Shown piece by piece: positions 1 through 7,429 of a DNA stretch of 7,429 bases. The position numbers were made by a program, and so were the translations under genes. Each line of letters starts with the position of its first letter. The stretch's first letter is position 1. Source of the stretch: Pelagibacteraceae bacterium TMED259 (lineage in GTDB: Bacteria; Pseudomonadota; Alphaproteobacteria; HIMB59); assembly GCA_002169365.1 (NCBI GenBank), contig NHLE01000030.1, positions 18,518 through 25,946 of the forward strand, in the 5' to 3' direction. The notes under the pieces are model-generated. The model saw only the letters and a program-made list of their open reading frames with translations. It was not told where the DNA came from and did no database searches.

Positions 1-86
1 GCAAAAAATACGTAAACACAGAATGACAATAAAATTGCAAAAGATAGATCAACATCTTTGGTAATTCTTTTAATAAAATTTTCCAT
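1..86 (-). CDS. Second sugar ABC transporter permease (5' end only, cut by window edge)
   Basis: Only the first 28 codons lie in the window; the gene continues beyond position 1. The ATG at 86..84 overlaps the stop of the upstream permease by one base (TAATG), which suggests translational coupling. The visible protein begins MENFIKRITKDVDLSFAILL and goes straight into a hydrophobic stretch from about residue 14, as expected for a short cytoplasmic tail followed by the first membrane helix of a BPD_transp_2 (RbsC-like) permease. The permease call rests mainly on operon position after the binding protein, ATPase and first permease. CUT2 systems often have two permease genes forming a heterodimer. 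The visible part has no family motif, so a different small membrane protein is not excluded. Confidence 0.6.
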   Translation of the reverse strand, partial: MENFIKRITKDVDLSFAILLSFCVYVFF

Positions 87-1126
87 TACTCTTGAGCCCT
101 ACTTCCTTTTGCAAACAATCCAAACACTATTATACTAAATACAATCATTAAGCCCACTCCCACAATTCTTGGGCCACTATTAAAACCTTGTAATACCATC
201 ATATTATCGACCATAGCAATAAATATGGCACCTAAACTAGTTCTTAAGGAAGATCCATAGCCTCCCATTATTGAATTTCCACCAACCATAACTGTAGCTA
301 TAACAAGTATTGTCATATCTCCCGAAGAACCAAATTCTGCTGAAAAATAATTAGATTGTGCACTATCCATTTGGGAAACAAATGCGACAGCCACAAAGGC
401 ACAACAAACAGAACAAATAGTAAAGACTATAATTGCCATAGAAAAATTCTCATGACCTGTTGCTTTTCCAGCCGCCTTATTTGATCCTACTAAATAAACT
501 TTTCTTCCAAAATTCGTATGCCGAAGAACTATCTCAGCAGCAATAGCTATTAAAATAAAAGACCAAGTAATACTTGGAAGACCTAAAAAGGAACCCGTAC
601 CTAACCATTCTGCATCATGAGGTCTCTTAAAATTTATGACTAAATTATCACTCCACCAAGCACCCAATCCATATAAAATTCCAGCACCACCAAGAGTAAC
701 AACAATTGGATTACCTCCCATACCAACAAAATATCCTTGAATAACTCCACTAACTACACCAACTGCTAGTGCTGCCAAAAGAGAAATAGTGAAATTACCA
801 GCTAATTCAGGTGAGCCAAAACCAGTTGCCATACCCATCGCAAATGTCACTCCACAAATAGATGCTGTTTCTTTAAGTGATAATAAAAAGAAATTGCCTG
901 AAAGAGTTACAAAGGTTAATCCTATAGCCATGATACCATACAATGCAGCATCTCTAATAATTGCTTTAAAATTAGTAAGAGTTAGATAGTTATCTGTAAA
1001 AAAAATTCCATAAACAAACATTACAGCAAATAAGGACAATAGGATGGCTAATAGAGTTCTGTCTTTATAAAATTGTAAAAATCTAGCAGATACTGATTCT
1101 TGATTATGTTGAGTAATAGATGTCAT
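86..1126 (-). CDS. Sugar ABC transporter permease, RbsC/BPD_transp_2 family
   Basis: A 346-residue inner-membrane protein forming part of the translocation channel of a CUT2-type ABC importer. After a polar N-terminus (residues 1-22) it has many hydrophobic segments, roughly 25-43, 58-75, 85-100, 113-135, 140-157, 185-201, 229-250, 271-283, 295-312 and 320-338. Family landmarks are NPIVVTLG (139-146), the cytoplasmic loop TNFGRKVYLVGSNKAA (204-219), which resembles the usual GR..y..G.N..AA, and VGGNSIMGGYGS (281-292), matching the conserved GG.S..GG.G segment. The common SG.DLSVG motif after the second helix is replaced by LSGNFFLLSLKE (75-86). The ATG overlaps the ATPase stop as ATGA and has only a weak ribosome site, so translation probably depends on coupling. 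Length is normal for the family, with a slightly long N-terminus. Substrate cannot be read from the sequence. Confidence 0.92.
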   Translation of the reverse strand: MTSITQHNQESVSARFLQFYKDRTLLAILLSLFAVMFVYGIFFTDNYLTLTNFKAIIRDAALYGIMAIGLTFVTLSGNFFLLSLKETASICGVTFAMGMATGFGSPELAGNFTISLLAALAVGVVSGVIQGYFVGMGGNPIVVTLGGAGILYGLGAWWSDNLVINFKRPHDAEWLGTGSFLGLPSITWSFILIAIAAEIVLRHTNFGRKVYLVGSNKAAGKATGHENFSMAIIVFTICSVCCAFVAVAFVSQMDSAQSNYFSAEFGSSGDMTILVIATVMVGGNSIMGGYGSSLRTSLGAIFIAMVDNMMVLQGFNSGPRIVGVGLMIVFSIIVFGLFAKGSRAQE

Positions 1127-2631
1127 AAGTTAGTCTCGTTAAATGGATCTGTTATTTCTTTTAAAATTACAGGTGTTTTAATATGCTCTAAACGATGTTC
1201 ATCAATCATCATACCTCTATAAAAAGTAATTACTCTATCTGGAAGATAAGTAATCTCTTGAATATCTGTTGAAGCAAAAATAATAGTGATACCACGTGAG
1301 GCTAGCTCCCTCATTCTTTGATATATTTCTGATTTAGCTCCTACATCCACACCTCGTGTAGGTTCATTAACAAGCAAAACATCCGGTTTAATTGATAACC
1401 ATTTTCCAAGGGCTACCTTTTGTTGATTTCCACCACTTAATAAACCAGACTCATCATACATTCTTTTAACATCAACTAAAAAATCCTTAGCTAAGCTTTT
1501 AGAGTAATTTTCCTCAGTATCTCCAAAGTTAAAACCATATTTTGAGATAGTACTAAGTGCAGGAGAAGTTAAATTTTCAAAAATTGGCCTCCCTAAAAAC
1601 AGGCCATCTTTTTTTCTATCTGATGAACAATAAGCAATTTTTTTTTTAATTGCTTGCTTAGGTGACTGAGGTAAAAAAGATTCACCGTTAAGCGTTAGCA
1701 AACCTGATCGAGACTGCAAAGCTCCCGCAATGGAAGCTAAAACTTCTCCAGCTCCACTTCCTAACTGACCTGATAGACCAAGAATTTCACCTTTAAAGGC
1801 TGAAAAACTTACGGGCTCGAGAACGCCATCCGGCCATAATTCTTTGATGTTAATTTGTGGTTCATCGCTAATATGATCTGCTCTTGAAGGAAACATGTTT
1901 GCTAATTCTCTACCAAGCATAATTTCAACCAATTTATTAACATCAATATCTTTAGTTTGTTGAACCCCTTGGCTTACCCCATCTCTTAAAATGGTAATTC
2001 TTTTAGTGATTTTAAAAATTTCATCTAATCTATGACTTACATAAATAATTGATTTTCCATTTGCTGCAAGACGCTCTACCATCTCTAATATTCTTCTACT
2101 CTCCGCTTCACCTAAAGCTGCAGTAGGTTCATCTAAAATTAAAATTTTCGCTTCTCTGGAAATAAGTCTTGCAACCTCTACTAAGTGCTGCTCTCCAACA
2201 GATAAGAGATTTATTCTAGTGGTGGGATCAACTTCTGTTAGACCTACCTCATCGAGGTAAGGACGTGCCATTTTTGATAAGGTACTCAGAGTTGCAAACT
2301 TCTTAACTTTAGCTCCAGTGAGAAATATATTTTCTGCTACTGACATATTAGGTATTAAACTTAGTTCTTGTTGGGCAATAGCTATGCCAGACTCTTCTGC
2401 TTGAGAGGGGGACTCAAACTTAACCTCTTGTCCATTGATTTGATAGCTACCTTTAAAACCTGGATCGAAACCACTTATAATTTTTACTAATGTCGATTTA
2501 CCAGCGCCATTTTCTCCAACAAGCCCCATAATTTCACCTTCATTGATTTCAAAATTTGCCTCTTTGAGAGCTTGGATGGCACCAAAAGTGCGAGATACGT
2601 TAGAAATTTTGAGAACTACGTTAGACGACAT
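1123..2631 (-). CDS. Sugar ABC transporter ATP-binding protein (RbsA/MglA-type, two ABC domains)
   Basis: A cytoplasmic ATPase of 502 residues with two fused ABC domains, the normal CUT2 layout, energising import through the permeases encoded downstream. Numbered from the ATG at 2631, the N-terminal domain has Walker A GENGAGKST (39-47), signature LSVGEQ (143-148), Walker B ILILDEP (163-169) and the switch His in YVSHR (197-201). The C-terminal domain has a degenerate Walker A, GQLGSGAGE (288-296), without the GKS/T lysine, a good signature LSGGNQQ (398-404), and LLVNEPTRGVDVG (419-431), where Asn replaces the usual Walker B Asp. A degenerate second P-loop is typical of RbsA/MglA proteins, so only the first site is likely fully active. 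A TTG at 2634..2632, one codon upstream, is an alternative start. The stop overlaps the permease ATG (ATGA). The binding-protein gene lies upstream across a hairpin-containing gap. Confidence 0.95.
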   Translation of the reverse strand: MSSNVVLKISNVSRTFGAIQALKEANFEINEGEIMGLVGENGAGKSTLVKIISGFDPGFKGSYQINGQEVKFESPSQAEESGIAIAQQELSLIPNMSVAENIFLTGAKVKKFATLSTLSKMARPYLDEVGLTEVDPTTRINLLSVGEQHLVEVARLISREAKILILDEPTAALGEAESRRILEMVERLAANGKSIIYVSHRLDEIFKITKRITILRDGVSQGVQQTKDIDVNKLVEIMLGRELANMFPSRADHISDEPQINIKELWPDGVLEPVSFSAFKGEILGLSGQLGSGAGEVLASIAGALQSRSGLLTLNGESFLPQSPKQAIKKKIAYCSSDRKKDGLFLGRPIFENLTSPALSTISKYGFNFGDTEENYSKSLAKDFLVDVKRMYDESGLLSGGNQQKVALGKWLSIKPDVLLVNEPTRGVDVGAKSEIYQRMRELASRGITIIFASTDIQEITYLPDRVITFYRGMMIDEHRLEHIKTPVILKEITDPFNETNL

Positions 2632-2645
2632 CAACTAATTGTATA

Positions 2646-2703: not shown

Positions 2704-2719
2704 TAAGGTGTTAACCTTA
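2704..2719 (-). other. Small hairpin overlapping the binding-protein stop codon
   Basis: TAAGGT (2704-2709) and ACCTTA (2714-2719) are perfect six-base inverted arms around a four-base loop. The right arm contains the stop codon of the binding-protein gene (TAA at 2719..2717). It is short and could be chance, but with the larger hairpin 13 bases further along the transcript it makes a double stem-loop 3' end. Confidence 0.35.
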
Positions 2720-3760
2720 GTCCCAAGCACCTGAGCAAAGCTCATCAATGCCATATAGGTTTCCATCAAAACCTCTTAATGCAGTGAAGTCCATAGTTGC
2801 ACCTGTCACTGAAGGGTTAGGGGTGAAGTTAATGTAGTTAGCAAGTTCACCATTATCCATGTACTCTTGTACAAGTTTAATAGCTAGTTGACCCTCATGC
2901 AGAGGTGACTGAAGAGTTGTACCGAATTGTTTTCCATCAGTAATCATCTGCTTATCACCGTTACACACTGTACCAACAGTAATAACAGCATCGCTATCTA
3001 CGCTACCACTTTTACCTGTACCTGCATACCAGTCAACATTGTACCCTGCTTCTTCCAGAGCTTTAATACCACCAGTTAAAATTGCATCATCCATTCCATA
3101 TACGAAATGAATTCCTTGATCTTTAACTTTAGAGATAAGTTTAGCAGCACCTTTGTATCCATTAGCCTGTCCAAAACCCTCACCAATGTCACCGATTAAA
3201 TTTAGATCAGTTCCAGCAATGGCCTGTTTGAAAGCATTAATTGAAAGACCATATCCGCCATAAGAGTGAGGATAAGATAATGCGATAACATTATAGCCCT
3301 CTCCACCAGCGGCTTGCTTCATCTTCATTGCTTTAACCATCATCTCACCTGCATTATATGCACGTAAGCTATCGTCAGGACCTGCGTATCCAAAGATAAA
3401 AGCTTTGTCTTGTTCATTTGGTAATTGATTAATTTTTAGAACTGGGACTCCAGTCTTTGCTAATTTTCTCAATGAACCAAGACCTGCTACAGCATCCGGT
3501 GGCCACCAAATAAATACATCTGGAAGCGCTCCGCTTGAAAGATATTGTTCAACTTGTTGGTTTTGCTCTGCTTGGTTATAGTTATTTTCAAAAACAGTAA
3601 TGTCATAACCATATTGAGCAGCAGTAGCTTTAATTCCTTTAACAAAGGCACCCACATAAGCTTCAGAAGATGCGGCGTTAAAGGAGACGATTTCAACCGC
3701 TTTGGCTGAACCGAAAGAAAAGCACATTAAAACAGCTAATACTTTAATTAGTTTGTTCAT
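2717..3760 (-). CDS. Periplasmic sugar-binding protein of an ABC transporter (RbsB-like, Peripla_BP_4)
   Basis: A 347-residue substrate-capturing protein that delivers ligand to the importer encoded downstream. It starts with a clear Sec signal peptide: basic MNKLIK, a hydrophobic core (7-17) and a likely cut after AKA at residue 21. The mature part starts VEIVSFNAASSEAYVGAFVK, a first-strand and helix pattern of class I (RbsB-like) binding proteins. The usual ND..A motif near the second lobe appears as MDDAILTGGIKALEEAG (223-239). Aromatics W85/W86 in FIWWPP (83-88) and F194/F196-region residues are plausible sugar-stacking positions. Two cysteines, C266 and C342, could form a disulfide in the oxidising periplasm. 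It is the first gene of the operon, has the strongest ribosome site in the window, and is followed by a hairpin, all consistent with high expression. The ligand cannot be read; a cyclitol is suggested only by the nearby iolE. Confidence 0.93.
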   Translation of the reverse strand: MNKLIKVLAVLMCFSFGSAKAVEIVSFNAASSEAYVGAFVKGIKATAAQYGYDITVFENNYNQAEQNQQVEQYLSSGALPDVFIWWPPDAVAGLGSLRKLAKTGVPVLKINQLPNEQDKAFIFGYAGPDDSLRAYNAGEMMVKAMKMKQAAGGEGYNVIALSYPHSYGGYGLSINAFKQAIAGTDLNLIGDIGEGFGQANGYKGAAKLISKVKDQGIHFVYGMDDAILTGGIKALEEAGYNVDWYAGTGKSGSVDSDAVITVGTVCNGDKQMITDGKQFGTTLQSPLHEGQLAIKLVQEYMDNGELANYINFTPNPSVTGATMDFTALRGFDGNLYGIDELCSGAWD

Positions 3761-3766
3761 ATTGAT

Positions 3767-3773
3767 CCTCCTT
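3767..3773 (-). promoter_or_regulatory. Strong ribosome binding site of the binding-protein gene
   Basis: AAGGAGG on the minus strand lies six bases before the ATG at 3760. It matches the anti-Shine-Dalgarno sequence fully and is the best ribosome site in the window. It fixes the start and supports a high translation rate. Confidence 0.88.
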
Positions 3774-3788
3774 GTTCCTATAAAATAA

Positions 3789-3816
3789 TTATCTCGATAT
3801 TAAGACAAGATATAAT
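3789..3816 (+). promoter_or_regulatory. Possible promoter of the winged-helix/SBP regulator gene
   Basis: A perfect TATAAT (3811-3816) lies 16 bases after TTATCT (3789-3794), a weak -35. Transcription would start near 3823, at the edge of the palindrome 3824-3840, giving a leader of about 55 bases. A second option is TTGAAT (3833-3838) with TAGTAT (3857-3862), 18 bases apart, which would give a leader of only about nine bases. In AT-rich DNA such boxes arise by chance often, so the choice is open. Confidence 0.35.
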
Positions 3817-3837
3817 CGCTAATATATTCAATTTGAA
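3809..3837 (-). promoter_or_regulatory. Possible promoter of the ABC transporter operon
   Basis: On the minus strand, TTCAAA (3837..3832) and TATATC (3814..3809) are 17 bases apart, each 4/6 to the sigma-70 consensus. The start would be near 3802 with a leader of about 40 bases that includes the AAGGAGG site. The -35 and spacer overlap the palindrome at 3824-3840, so a bound regulator could block or recruit polymerase here. The match is modest and the region very AT-rich. Confidence 0.3.
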
Positions 3838-3840
3838 TAT
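3824..3840. promoter_or_regulatory. Perfect palindrome, candidate operator between transporter and regulator genes
   Basis: ATATTCAATTTGAATAT has two perfect eight-base arms around one central T, centred in the 117-bp divergent region. It is the right size for a dimeric winged-helix or HTH regulator and overlaps predicted promoter elements on both strands. A further half-site ATATTC occurs at 3861-3866, and a second AT-only palindrome, ATTTTTAAAAAT, at 3839-3850 abuts it. The natural candidate binder is the adjacent regulator, controlling itself and the transporter. The palindrome is seen directly; its role is inferred. Confidence 0.55.
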
Positions 3841-3877
3841 TTTTAAAAATGATGTTTAGTATATTCCTCAAGTTAAA

Positions 3878-5563
3878 ATGAACAGAAATGAAATCAATTC
3901 CCTCTTAAAATTTGTTGATAAAACAAGAATTTTATTCAATAAAACCGTTTCAAATAAAACAGTCGACTCAGATTGGAAGATTTTTTCATTTGTTATCACC
4001 AATCATCTTGATAATAAAATTAATACTATAACTAGTATTATTCAGGCTTCAGGTCTTCCTTTTGCAACTGGTTTGAGAAGAGTCAAAAAACTTATTAATG
4101 AAAAAAAACTAATTCAAAGAACAAAAACAAAATCAGGAAAGTCATTTTCAATTCATCCTAGTACAGAGTTAATTAAAGAATTTACTGATTACCTTTTATT
4201 AATAAAAAAGGAGATTGCTTCAAATTTGGGTTTCAGTGAAATCAATGATAATTATTTTTTTGGGACATCTCTATCTGCAGGAAATATTATACCAGCCCCA
4301 ACGGTAATTATTAATCAAGATAAAAAATATAAGAAACTCCAATTTCTTTCAAATGATAATCCAACATTTAAAGTCATAGAAAAAAATATTGATTTTTTTG
4401 AATACATTCTCGATTGTAAAATTGATCTTACAATTGAGGGAGATTTAAAAAAACTTCTTAATAAAATTATAAAAAATTCTCAGTCAGAGAAAAAATCAAA
4501 ATTTGATATTGTTGCTTTCAATATTCCATGGATTGGGCAATTAACGAAATTAAATTGCCTCCTCCCCCTAAGTCCTTATGTAGAAGAAGTAGGGATTAAT
4601 TTAAACGATTTTCACTATTCAGGAATTCGTTCAAGTAGTTATAAAAAAAATTTATATGGTATCCCCATAGAGGCTATTCCAGATTTATTATTTTTTCGTA
4701 AAGATATTTTTGATAAATATAAAATAAAGCCTCCTAAAAGTTTTGATGAATTATTTCAGGTTTGTGAAACTCTTAAGAACGATAAAGAAATTGAAAGTCC
4801 GATAGCTTGGCCTGCAAAAAGAGGTCAGCCATTAGCTACAAGTTTTATTCTAGCTATGGCAAATTATGGCAAACCATACATAAACCTTCGCCATATAGGT
4901 CAAAATATCTATGACCTAGACTCAGAAAAAATTTTATTGAAAACTAATTTTCTATCAGAGGCCTCTTTTCAAGCAGCAAAGATGCTGAAAAAATTATTAA
5001 ATTATTCTCCAAAAAATATTTCTTACCATTCAAATGACGAATGTGTTGAATACTATAGCAAAGGTAAGTCAGCAATGGTGATGAATTGGAGTAGTAGAGC
5101 ACATTTATTTGAATTGAATAATAAATCTCCAGCTTTTAAAAAAACTGGATACTTACCAAGACCTGCTGGTCATCCTTCATTTCAGGTATCGCCAATTGGA
5201 GGTTTCTCTCTAGGGGTGCCAGCAAATATACCCAATGAAAAAATACCTTTTATCATGAAAAATATTCGTAATTTCGTATCTCCAGAATTCATTAAATATT
5301 ATATTGAGCACGGCAGTCTTTCTTCACCGGTTTTTAGTGTCGTCAATGACCCAGAGGTTAGGGCTCTGAGTCCCATTTTTAATGAGATTGATAAAATGGA
5401 AAAAGAGGAAAAACTAATTGAGTGGGCTAGATATCCACTACCTACCTATTCTAATATCATTGAAGAAGTGGGAAATAAAATTTATGAATTTATTTTTTTA
5501 AATAAAGATCTTGAAGACACCTTAGAAAGTTGTCAGCAAAGTTGTCAGAAATATTTAAATTAA
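3878..5563 (+). CDS. Predicted transcription regulator: winged helix fused to a cytosolic SBP family 1 (MBP-like) sensor domain
   Basis: A 561-residue protein with no signal peptide or membrane helix, so probably cytoplasmic. Residues about 30-105 fit a MarR-like winged helix: WKIFSFVITNHL, then INTITSIIQASGLP, a likely recognition helix FATGLRRVKKLINEKKLI (62-79) and a basic wing RTKTKSGKSFSIHPS (81-95). Residues about 150-555 look like an extracellular solute-binding protein family 1 domain: YGIP.EAIPDLLFFRKDIFDKY (260-281), PPKSFDELF (285-293), GKSAMVMNWSSRA (396-408), GGFSLGVPANIPNEK (441-455) and the closing YPLPTY..I (519-527). A normal SBP of this family is about 400-430 residues with a signal peptide; here the export signal is replaced by a DNA-binding domain. 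It is divergent from the transporter operon, as expected for its local regulator. No good ribosome site precedes the ATG. The domain reading is from motifs only; ligand and sign of control are unknown. It is more AT- and Lys/Asn-rich than its neighbours. Confidence 0.85.
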   Translation: MNRNEINSLLKFVDKTRILFNKTVSNKTVDSDWKIFSFVITNHLDNKINTITSIIQASGLPFATGLRRVKKLINEKKLIQRTKTKSGKSFSIHPSTELIKEFTDYLLLIKKEIASNLGFSEINDNYFFGTSLSAGNIIPAPTVIINQDKKYKKLQFLSNDNPTFKVIEKNIDFFEYILDCKIDLTIEGDLKKLLNKIIKNSQSEKKSKFDIVAFNIPWIGQLTKLNCLLPLSPYVEEVGINLNDFHYSGIRSSSYKKNLYGIPIEAIPDLLFFRKDIFDKYKIKPPKSFDELFQVCETLKNDKEIESPIAWPAKRGQPLATSFILAMANYGKPYINLRHIGQNIYDLDSEKILLKTNFLSEASFQAAKMLKKLLNYSPKNISYHSNDECVEYYSKGKSAMVMNWSSRAHLFELNNKSPAFKKTGYLPRPAGHPSFQVSPIGGFSLGVPANIPNEKIPFIMKNIRNFVSPEFIKYYIEHGSLSSPVFSVVNDPEVRALSPIFNEIDKMEKEEKLIEWARYPLPTYSNIIEEVGNKIYEFIFLNKDLEDTLESCQQSCQKYLN

Positions 5564-5564
5564 A

Positions 5565-6386
5565 TTATTTTACTTCCATTTTTTCAGCAGGCTGAGGTGG
5601 GGCGAAAGGATATCCTCCCCAAACTGATTGATCAAAGTTAACAACTGATCCTGTCATCATTCCTGAGTCATCGGATGCGAGAAAGGCTACAGCTCTAGCA
5701 ACCTCTTTAGGGTCAAGTAATCGCTCAAATGGCTGAGCCTTGGCAGCATCCTCTAACCAATTTTCAGGAGCATTGTGATATTTTGTTTGAATCTCATGTT
5801 CGCCATCAGATGCCATCCATCCAATGTTAAGTTGGTTAACACGAATTTTATTTTTAAGAAGAGCAAATGCGGTATTTCTTGTTAAAGTTGCCAATGCTCC
5901 TTTTGAAACACAATAAGTTGAAATAAAAGGCTGGCCAGTCATGGCGGCTACTGAACCAATATTAATAATTGAACCTTGGATATTTTGTTCAATCATTATT
6001 TTAACGGTATCTTGAATCAAAAAATAAGGACCTTTTAAATTAACGCCAATCATTTTGTCAAAAAGCTCCTCTGAGGTATCAACAATATTACCTCTATCCG
6101 TAATACCCGCTGCATTAACTAAAATATCTATTTTACCAAATTCTTTTTTTGCAAAAGAAACAGCATTTCTACATTGATCAACTTCCGGGAGGTCGGTTTT
6201 TACAAACAAAGTTTTACAACCGGTATCCTCTGTAATCTTTTTAGCAACTTCTTTTCCTTTTTCCTCTGATCTTCCAATAGTAATAATACCTGCTGCACCA
6301 TTTTCTGCTAATCGACGAGCTATAGCCACTCCAAGGCCCTGAGTTCCACCTGTGATTAATGCAAATTTTCCCTTAATGCTATTCAT
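5565..6386 (-). CDS. Short-chain dehydrogenase/reductase (classical SDR family)
   Basis: A 273-residue cytoplasmic NAD(P)-dependent oxidoreductase with a Rossmann fold. The cofactor motif TGGTQGLG (12-19), the adenine-contacting D65 and NAAG (91-94) are intact, as is the catalytic set N116, S145, Y158 and K162 (YCVSK). R39, after the second strand (IGRSEEK), sits where a basic residue often favours NADP(H), but this is only a hint. The C-terminus has about 20 residues beyond the usual 250, ending in a proline-rich tail (YPFAPPQPAEK) that may belong to the active-site lid. Its ATG overlaps the iolE stop (ATGA), so the two are one transcription unit; a GAGGGG (6395-6400) upstream may also serve as ribosome site. 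Coupling to iolE suggests it acts on a cyclitol, keto-inositol or its product. Its substrate cannot be read, and generic labels such as 3-oxoacyl-ACP reductase would be unsupported. Confidence 0.93.
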   Translation of the reverse strand: MNSIKGKFALITGGTQGLGVAIARRLAENGAAGIITIGRSEEKGKEVAKKITEDTGCKTLFVKTDLPEVDQCRNAVSFAKKEFGKIDILVNAAGITDRGNIVDTSEELFDKMIGVNLKGPYFLIQDTVKIMIEQNIQGSIINIGSVAAMTGQPFISTYCVSKGALATLTRNTAFALLKNKIRVNQLNIGWMASDGEHEIQTKYHNAPENWLEDAAKAQPFERLLDPKEVARAVAFLASDDSGMMTGSVVNFDQSVWGGYPFAPPQPAEKMEVK

Positions 6387-7291
6387 TCCTGATACCCCTC
6401 TATTTCATATCCAAACATATTTAAACAATCAACGAGTTCTTTATTGCCAATTTTAGCATACTCTAATGGATTGGCTTTAGCGGGGTCCTGTTCAGCTTCT
6501 ACTATGAACCACCCTTCATACTCATTTTTTGCAAGTGTTTCGATAACTTCTTTAAAATTTATACTCCCATCTCCAGGGACAGTGAAGGCTCCCTTTAATA
6601 CCGCATCTAGAAAGCTTTCCTTTGTACGATCTAAGCTGTTAACCACATCTGATCGAATATCCTTAGCGTGAAAATGGTTCATTCTTTTTGCGTATTTATT
6701 AATAACATTAATAGAGTTGCCACCAGCAAACGTCATATGACCTGTATCAAATAGTAGATAAACAGCTTCTCCTGTATTATTCATGAGAAGATCTAATTCT
6801 TCTTCTGTTTCAATTGCTGTACCCATGTGATGATGAAAGGATATGGGCATTCCAAAATCAGCACAGTATTCTGCAAAAGCAGTTAATTTTTTTCCATATT
6901 CTTTAAAGTCTTCAGGGTGAATTTTTCTTTTGGTGTTAAGTGGAGCATGTCGAACATTCTGGATAGTTCCTGCGGTCTCACCATAAACTAGGCAAGGTGC
7001 ATTTAAATCTCTAAATAAAGTAAGTTGCTCCAGAGCTTTGTCTTTTTCTTTTTCAAGTTCATTATCTAAGATTGTTCCAGAATACCAGCCTGATGCCAAA
7101 TAGAGTTTATGATTTTTAAGTATAGGGCCGAGTTCCTTTGATGTTTTAGGGAACTTACCCCCAGTTTCAACACCTGAAAAACCTGCAAGTCTTGACTCAT
7201 TCAAACAAGTTTCAAGTGTGGTCTCTCCACCAAGTTCAGGAAGGTCATCGTTTGACCAAGCGATCGGTGCAATTCCAAGTTTAGCTTTCAT
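6383..7291 (-). CDS. iolE: Inosose dehydratase (IolE), xylose isomerase-like TIM barrel
   Basis: A 302-residue protein that matches, from memory, the landmarks of Bacillus IolE (297 residues), which dehydrates 2-keto-myo-inositol in inositol breakdown. Matches run the full length: GIAPIAWSNDDLPELGG (6-22), a G-x-E-x-GG region at 40-45, FHHHMGT (152-158), LLFDTGH (179-185), HFHAKD (206-211), FTVPGDG (236-242) and VEAEQDPAKANPLEYA (264-279). In this TIM-barrel family the conserved His, Asp and Glu residues of these motifs hold the catalytic metal. AAAGGA (7304..7299) lies seven bases before the ATG, and a good promoter lies just upstream. It is the first gene of a two-gene unit with the SDR. 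A divergent start of a likely Gfo/Idh/MocA dehydrogenase at 7391 fits inositol dehydrogenase as partner. A closely related keto-cyclitol dehydratase remains possible. Confidence 0.9.
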   Translation of the reverse strand: MKAKLGIAPIAWSNDDLPELGGETTLETCLNESRLAGFSGVETGGKFPKTSKELGPILKNHKLYLASGWYSGTILDNELEKEKDKALEQLTLFRDLNAPCLVYGETAGTIQNVRHAPLNTKRKIHPEDFKEYGKKLTAFAEYCADFGMPISFHHHMGTAIETEEELDLLMNNTGEAVYLLFDTGHMTFAGGNSINVINKYAKRMNHFHAKDIRSDVVNSLDRTKESFLDAVLKGAFTVPGDGSINFKEVIETLAKNEYEGWFIVEAEQDPAKANPLEYAKIGNKELVDCLNMFGYEIEGYQE

Positions 7292-7390: not shown

Positions 7391-7429
7391 ATGAAAAAAA
7401 TTAATATAGCAGTACTTGGTTGTGGCAGG
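7391..7429 (+). CDS. Likely Gfo/Idh/MocA family NAD(P)-dependent oxidoreductase (5' end only)
   Basis: The open frame starts at ATG 7391 and runs off the window after 13 codons: MKKINIAVLGCGR. A short basic start, one hydrophobic strand and then G-C-G-R is the classic first strand and glycine loop of Gfo/Idh/MocA oxidoreductases, which include inositol 2-dehydrogenase (IolG). It is divergent from iolE across 99 bases, so co-regulation from that gap is plausible, and an inositol or cyclitol dehydrogenase would provide the inosose substrate of IolE. With only 13 residues, another Rossmann enzyme is possible, and no specific gene name is justified. No Shine-Dalgarno sequence precedes the ATG. 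Confidence 0.6.
   Translation, partial: MKKINIAVLGCGR

Follow-up and report, generated by a model that had tools for sequence, protein, structure and literature searches.

Is a protein that carries the domain of an importer binding protein, and begins with a predicted winged helix, part of a sugar transporter or a regulator of one? This question is raised by a 561-residue open reading frame (ORF) at positions 3878..5563, plus strand, in a 7,429-nucleotide stretch of contig NHLE01000030.1 from Pelagibacteraceae bacterium TMED259; we refer to the whole stretch as the window. A first-pass annotation had proposed that the ORF joins a winged helix to a near-complete solute-binding protein (SBP) family 1 domain resembling maltose-binding protein (MBP). 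Pfam, AlphaFold2 and Pfam searches across the family bear this out. We conclude, with a probability of about 0.8, that the gene encodes a cytoplasmic, ligand-controlled one-component regulator that acts locally, probably by repression, on inositol-type import and catabolism.

A predicted winged helix joined to an MBP-like domain

The N-terminal part of the window protein is confidently predicted to be a winged-helix DNA-binding domain. The AlphaFold2 model of the whole protein, based on a 25-row alignment, has a mean predicted local distance difference test score (pLDDT) of 86 and a predicted template modelling score (pTM) of 0.74. It contains helices at residues 3-23, 31-44, 51-58 and 62-74, strands at 78-80 and 92-94, and a helix at 96-116, elements that are unchanged when the N-domain is folded by itself with 41 rows (pLDDT 88.8, pTM 0.81). 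Because both models agree on these elements, the domain extends over residues 3-116 (3884..4225) and not over 30-105 as first drawn. Helices 51-58 and 62-74 would form the helix-turn-helix (HTH; 4028..4099), and the wing (4109..4159) carries the conserved motif R81..GKSFS(I/L)HP 87-94. Its basic residues R81, K83, K85 and K88 lie where the first-pass annotation had placed a basic wing, at 81-95. T64 and R67 are invariant across 41 family N-domains, the window protein included, and P61 is invariant in the 25-sequence alignment.

In these 41 N-domains, Pfam at E ≤ 0.1 recognizes MarR_2 in 20 (best E 1.4e-4), HTH_IclR in 11 and TrmB in 9. Structural matches of the N-domain (50 rows listed) are winged-helix proteins, mostly of the MarR type; Foldseek gives no match at E ≤ 1e-3, and non-MarR winged helices tie in the VIA rows. 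The sequence profile of the N-domain finds nothing in the PDB at E ≤ 0.1, and the NCBIfam TcaR match of the window protein is weak (E 0.013, cut-off not reached).

A linker (residues 117-152, 4226..4333), with pLDDT below 50 at 118-135, leads to the MBP-like sensor domain at residues 153-560 (4334..5557). Pfam assigns SBP_bac_1 at 202-468 (E 2.2e-19) and SBP_bac_8 at 190-492 (E 3.4e-18), and the domain matches 5iai both by PDB profile (E 5e-47) and by Foldseek (TM-score 0.91 over the target). These matches identify a ligand-binding domain, and ligand binding is predicted from them.

The window protein appears to be cytosolic. In a crude Kyte-Doolittle check of the first 50 residues, used in place of SignalP, its maximum hydrophobicity is 0.99; values above 1.8 occur in 3 of 70 family members, compared with 74% of 43 neighbouring CUT2 binding proteins. 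The protein thus has the SBP_bac_1 domain of an SBP family 1 importer protein and shows neither a signal peptide nor a lipoprotein signal by this measure, as the first-pass annotation had supposed for the signal peptide. Neither a model lacking the winged helix nor periplasmic homologues with a signal peptide were seen.

Extent and conservation of the family

The two-domain architecture is conserved. Of 60 homologues, 55 span at least 89% of the query, four are partial and one matches a single quarter; 48 alignment columns are invariant across 25 chosen sequences with identity down to 27%. This coverage and invariance argue that the fusion is not a chance product. Genome contigs yielded 352 relatives, and the best 80 were retained. 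Among these best 80 are HIMB59-like bacteria, Rhodobacterales, Rhizobiales and others, as well as Marinobacterium, Vibrio penaeicida, Grimontia, a Salinisphaera metagenome-assembled genome (MAG) and Paraburkholderia. An initial impression that similar proteins occur in other alphaproteobacteria was therefore right but too narrow, since the family extends to gammaproteobacteria and a Paraburkholderia. The closest loci, L001-L025, all of them from marine alphaproteobacteria, show 60-84% identity over their matches. Among them, L025 carries the name HIMB59, and the genomes of L016, L017, L018, L021 and L025 belong to the same family as that of L001; we label loci and genomes of the L001-L025 type HIMB59-like, and the window most likely stems from a genome of this kind.

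A search with the N-domain of a Palleronia member, limited to candidates of similar length, returned 364 proteins. All 120 of those listed carry SBP Pfam domains, so this winged helix has no other partner among them. When the phylum was sampled evenly, the full architecture was present in 6 of 398 genomes (the centre included), and 15 more matched in the SBP part only. Matches at E ≤ 1e-60 occur in 27 of 52 genomes of the family of G001, three of them partial, and matches at E ≤ 1e-120 in 14 of 121 genomes of the order of G407.

As the first-pass annotation expected, the names shown for relatives are extracellular solute-binding protein or similar, and once hypothetical protein; none is a regulator, with many names cut short and most proteins carrying none. 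The literature searched, which excludes most subscription journals, yielded no description of this regulator family. GntR-SBP_bac_1 fusions of Firmicutes may be a further relative.

Individual members show irregularities. At L060 the regulator is apparently broken into two ORFs, and a partial match in G536:C18 contains one in-frame TAG; an assembly error is possible in both. L029 lies on a contig labelled as a Bacteroidetes MAG and is probably mis-binned, as its neighbours cluster with those of alphaproteobacterial loci.

A conserved palindrome accompanies the regulator gene

Alignment of the gaps between regulator and importer genes in the HIMB59-like loci reveals the palindrome ATATTCA-N3-TGAATAT. 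The gap at 3761-3877, singled out by the first-pass annotation, contains this palindrome exactly, as ATATTCAATTTGAATAT at 3824..3840 (strand-neutral), at a distance of 37 nt upstream of the regulator start and 63 nt upstream of the start of the importer binding-protein gene. It is the sole match in the window at up to three mismatches, and its presence there adds support for a regulator. The palindrome occupies the same gap in 24 of the 25 HIMB59-like loci, 23 times exactly; at L003 and L018-L020 the called ORF is too long and runs over the gap. A second copy lies about 4.8 kb away in 22 of 25 loci (in L001 between the last permease and a short-chain dehydrogenase/reductase (SDR) gene), counted at two mismatches or fewer to the N1 form of the palindrome. 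A weaker third copy, with one to three mismatches, lies near the iolE/iolG gap in 19 of 25. Across six HIMB59-like genomes (7.3 Mb), all ten exact matches are in regulator loci, one of them before the second paralogue of L017. This paralogue (L017:410-2110) is 40% identical, shares its HIMB59-like locus with the first, has its own operator copy at 293 and is followed by an IolG gene.

Related palindromes recur beside distant family members. TCCA-N3-TGGA is found in 17 of 50 distant upstream regions, compared with at most four for any 4-mer palindrome in five single-base shuffles. The longer form TATYCA-N3-TGRATA, with one mismatch or none, gives 42 sites in 53 loci, 37 of them intergenic; in a sample of 60 half-sites that included the true one, the best of the other 59 gave five intergenic sites. 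At the same threshold, 14 of 50 upstream regions hold the site, and among 179 permutations TATCYA reaches 12 and the next two. TATCYA is not an independent control, because it matches the same TATCCA sites. Of 18 loci unused for the motif, five hold a site at one mismatch or fewer (TATCYA three, next one, mean 0.06); this set omits L092 and L096, copies of L048 and L040, and the HIMB59-like L081 and L105-L115.

Forms of the palindrome accompany family members of Rhizobiales, Rhodobacterales, Vibrio and Grimontia. Paired sites 21 bp apart occur at L046, L048, L051, L054, L085, L088, L091 and L093, and other spacings at distant loci are 20, 29, 32 or 35 bp. Eight genomes (41.9 Mb) contain nine exact copies of TATCCANNNTGGATA, seven of them at the loci used to pick the genomes. 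Another lies 48 nt before the first ATG of an unlisted family paralogue, 67% identical to P0052, whose true start may be further down. At L089 (G410:C42:23834, Vibrio penaeicida), an exact TATCCA-N3-TGGATA lies 45 nt before a 163-residue ORF that by eye only resembles an acetyltransferase; the 16 kb examined there contain no family member.

A second pattern, AAAT-N5-ATTT, occurs in 14 of 50 upstream regions. Eleven of the 14 fall in a shared stretch, T(A/G)TCAGATTTGGA(C/T), located some 80-100 bp upstream of the regulator. The right half of this stretch resembles the TGGATA half-site, and the stretch is at least two bases off the 15-base consensus.

The palindrome accompanies the gene, yet many loci have no clear site, and we regard it as an operator candidate. 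Such a candidate is new here for this gene family, with DNA binding predicted from the sequence pattern.

Gene neighbourhood

The regulator ORF on the plus strand sits between two minus-strand blocks, a CUT2 importer operon and an SDR gene with iolE. The divergent block begins with the CUT2 importer binding protein (2717..3760; Peripla_BP_4 by Pfam, with a signal-peptide-like N-terminus by eye). It continues with an RbsA/AraG-like CUT2 ATPase (1123..2634) and an RbsC-like CUT2 permease (86..1126), both identified by Pfam and NCBIfam. The three genes are putative targets. Positions 1..85 (minus strand) probably represent the beginning of another CUT2 permease gene, truncated where the window ends, judging from the gene order of L001 and the Pfam match of the equivalent gene there. 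On the other side lie, on the minus strand, an SDR-family oxidoreductase of the PRK06198 type (5565..6386; 408.9 bits, cut-off 240) and IolE, myo-inosose-2 dehydratase (6383..7291; 398.6 bits, cut-off 290). The first codons of a further gene on the plus strand (7391..7429) are probably iolG, as in L001, where the gene at this position is IolG (398.5 bits, cut-off 355) and the cluster also includes an HpaI-like aldolase.

Between the binding-protein and ATPase genes, positions 2664-2691 form a strong hairpin with arms ACACACAGGGAA/TTCCCTGTGTGT; folding 86 nt of minus-strand RNA gives a z-score of -4.4. By stabilizing or terminating the mRNA, the hairpin may increase expression of the binding protein.

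Most sampled relatives also lie beside CUT2 importers. Neighbours were clustered for 58 loci (L001, L017, L021 and L026-L080), other HIMB59-like loci being omitted as near copies; two (L033, L062) were dropped because no kept ORF matched the query, leaving 56. Cluster representatives were named by Pfam and NCBIfam, except for the largest permease cluster, which takes its name from the annotated locus of P. inhibens, whose counterpart genes encode ABC permeases. Within five genes of the regulator, 47 of 56 loci have at least two kinds of CUT2 gene and 53 at least one; none was found within that distance in L029, L036 and L042. The neighbours include 43 RbsB-like (Peripla_BP_4) binding proteins, which are the importers' own. 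RbsB-like proteins have the class I fold and MBP-like proteins the class II fold. In one group of loci the neighbours also include a GMC oxidoreductase (25 loci) together with an IolG-like enzyme (22 loci); a second group has SDRs, an M24-family protein, E1 alpha/beta, a lipoyl protein and an aldehyde dehydrogenase.

Two loci carry further transport genes. The inositol cluster of L001 encodes a rhizopine-catabolism-type binding protein (L001:15927-16829; 237 bits, below the cut-off of 420), beside a CUT2-like ATPase and a 529-residue permease-like protein. At L087, on Agrobacterium plasmid pAtCFBP6626a, a family member has CUT2-like importer genes on one side and, on the other, CUT1-like importer genes with another solute-binding protein; the locus has no operator match at one mismatch or fewer.

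Proposed mechanism and alternatives

In the mechanism that we favour, the winged helix, nearest to the MarR type and presumably dimeric, would bind ATATTCA-N3-TGAATAT between the regulator gene and the divergent CUT2 operon. The MBP-like flytrap would close on a small ligand, either imported or a pathway intermediate, for which an inositol-type polyol or one of its derivatives is most likely. This closure would alter DNA binding such that the importer and catabolic genes are induced. Most likely, the divergent promoters and the regulator's own gene would be repressed and then released on ligand binding. MarR-type and most sugar-importer regulators are repressors; this, and the position of the site between two close divergent starts, favours repression.

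Taken jointly, the observations make it fairly likely that this regulator family of alphaproteobacteria, gammaproteobacteria and at least one betaproteobacterium, recorded under binding-protein names, uses its winged helix and MBP-type flytrap to read intracellular polyols or glycosides. It would act at operators resembling TATYCA-N3-TGRATA, which in some lineages come in pairs spaced by two helical turns, and would control CUT2 importers that have a binding protein of the other class, so that uptake and sensing would employ different flytraps for related ligands. In the streamlined marine HIMB59-like bacteria it would stand in for the missing IolR.

Several points weigh against the interpretation as a local regulator acting at the palindrome. 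We infer DNA binding, dimerization, the ligand and the sign of regulation, and Pfam finds no HTH in the window protein itself. The three-mismatch search also gives at least one match in 41 of 200 shuffles (mean 0.23), and neither the second nor the third copy was found in the window, the place of the second falling outside it. At one mismatch, the six HIMB59-like genomes contain 25 sites, of which 14 fall outside the locus; the reversed control gives four sites. In the distant upstream regions, 36 of 50 have no site at one mismatch or fewer, and the separation is weaker at two or fewer (true half-site 19 of 50, TATCYA 18, next permutation 12). Similarly, 13 of the 18 loci unused for the motif show no site within 400 bp, and at two mismatches or fewer two permuted half-sites also reach 5 of 18. 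Of six beta- and gammaproteobacterial loci, those of Vibrio and Grimontia alone have the site before the regulator. In the eight-genome scan, one of the nine exact matches (L089) has no family member nearby and the reversed control gives three matches, all of them in G410. Part of these data had already served to choose the motif, and each of the eight genomes was picked for a locus with a site. A promoter and terminator scan of 3700-3950 finds two promoter-like sites, compared with a mean of 2.1 in shuffles; at this chance level it is uninformative on whether regulation is positive or negative. Finally, the six HIMB59-like assemblies in which RpiR-type HTH domains gave no match are 1.1-1.4 Mb in size and of unknown completeness.

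The chances that the ligand is inositol-like, as IolE and IolG suggest, are about even, and ligands probably differ between members given the varied enzyme sets beside them. Somewhat less probably, the sensor takes a ligand of another type, such as an oligosaccharide or glycoside, and the adjoining inositol genes are only local targets. The best PDB matches of the sensor, which bind disaccharides, sulfoquinovosyl compounds or sorbitol, are consistent with this, as are the GMC oxidoreductases, levoglucosan-dehydrogenase-like enzymes or E1/lipoyl/aldehyde dehydrogenase set beside other members. The presence of IolE in the window, and of IolG in this gene cluster among relatives, argues for an inositol-type ligand instead.

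For the sign of regulation, the main alternative is an activator of the same architecture, whose ligand-bound form would recruit RNA polymerase at the importer promoter. We consider this unlikely in view of the general prevalence of repressors among MarR-type and sugar-importer regulators, and the promoter scan is of no help to it; the distance of 63 nt between the operator candidate and the importer start codon fits either mode. The nearest working analogue points towards activation: according to PMC13060122, DsvR exerts positive control over zapC and genes for sugar uptake. A title cited there describes SgrR as a transcriptional activator, and SgrR represses its own gene (PMC13060122).

It is quite improbable that the protein is a regulator while the palindrome serves another factor of the locus, for example an IolR- or LacI-type repressor. 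Many family loci have no visible palindrome, the exact match at L089 is far from any family member, and PMC2597717 places Caulobacter inositol genes under an RpiR-type IolR with the promoter palindrome GGAA-N6-TTCC. That motif is unlike ATATTCA-N3-TGAATAT, RpiR HTH domains are matched in 0 of 6 HIMB59-like genomes and LacI HTH domains in 1 of 6. Palindrome forms recur beside family members across groups, and a genome scan with the palindrome led to another member. An IolR site was rejected because the motif differs and no RpiR HTH match was found in the six genomes; the window-type regulator may take IolR's place in HIMB59-like bacteria.

An ordinary periplasmic binding protein with an unusual N-terminal extension, as the SBP-only Pfam matches and the names of relatives might suggest, is hardly credible and was rejected, given the missing export-signal-like stretch, the predicted winged helix, the accompanying palindrome and the 43 RbsB-like binding proteins already among the neighbours, one adjoining the regulator in the window.

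Significance

Hundreds of proteins, judging from 352 loci in one genome collection and 364 proteins found through the N-domain, appear to share the architecture favoured here. As the names shown are those of binding or hypothetical proteins, carbon-source regulation in roseobacters, rhizobia and streamlined marine bacteria has probably been overlooked. The family may be a source of switches that sense ligands through an MBP-like domain, a type of protein already studied in depth, and the operator pattern would make some regulons predictable.

Comparison with known regulators and binding proteins

MarR proteins are small (about 140 residues) single-domain dimers that sense their ligand inside the winged-helix dimer. 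Set beside MepR, TcaR and MarR, the N-domain of the window family has mostly MarR-type structural matches, with non-MarR winged helices tying, and matches MarR_2 in 20 of 41 cases; the window protein differs in having 561 residues and a separate flytrap of about 400. LacI/GalR proteins are local regulators of sugar importers with another HTH and a class I (RbsB-like) flytrap sensor related to binding proteins. The window sensor, in contrast, is MBP-like (class II), and the RbsB-like protein belongs to the neighbouring importer; no LacI or Peripla_BP match was found in the window protein at Pfam E ≤ 1. The sensor shares its fold and sequence family with 5iai (Arad_9887), 1eu8 (trehalose/maltose) and 4rya (sorbitol), whereas these are importer binding proteins of 409-424 residues whose matched chains have no DNA-binding domain.

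Caulobacter IolR, an RpiR-type protein, regulates a CUT2 inositol importer and iol genes, according to PMC2597717. It has a SIS-domain sensor and the motif GGAA-N6-TTCC (PMC2597717). The window family, in contrast, combines a winged helix with an MBP-like sensor. No RpiR HTH or SIS match was found in the window protein at Pfam E ≤ 1.

The closest precedent in principle is provided by SgrR of E. coli and DsvR/Vca0578 of Vibrio cholerae, which carry an HTH at the N-terminus and a solute-binding domain at the C-terminus of a single chain, as described in PMC13060122. The first-pass annotation placed an intracellular MBP-like sensor outside the textbook architectures; the fusion of an HTH with a solute-binding domain as such is already known from these proteins. 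The sensor of SgrR and DsvR is SBP_bac_5, whereas that of the window family is SBP_bac_1/8, with the gene beside CUT2 importers. Membership of the window protein in SgrR was rejected because the sensor family differs, and neither SgrR_N nor SBP_bac_5 is among its Pfam matches at E ≤ 1. The window family differs from SgrR and DsvR in sensor family and genomic role. Taken with SgrR, it would show that the conversion into cytoplasmic sensors happened more than once, among solute-binding proteins of different clusters.
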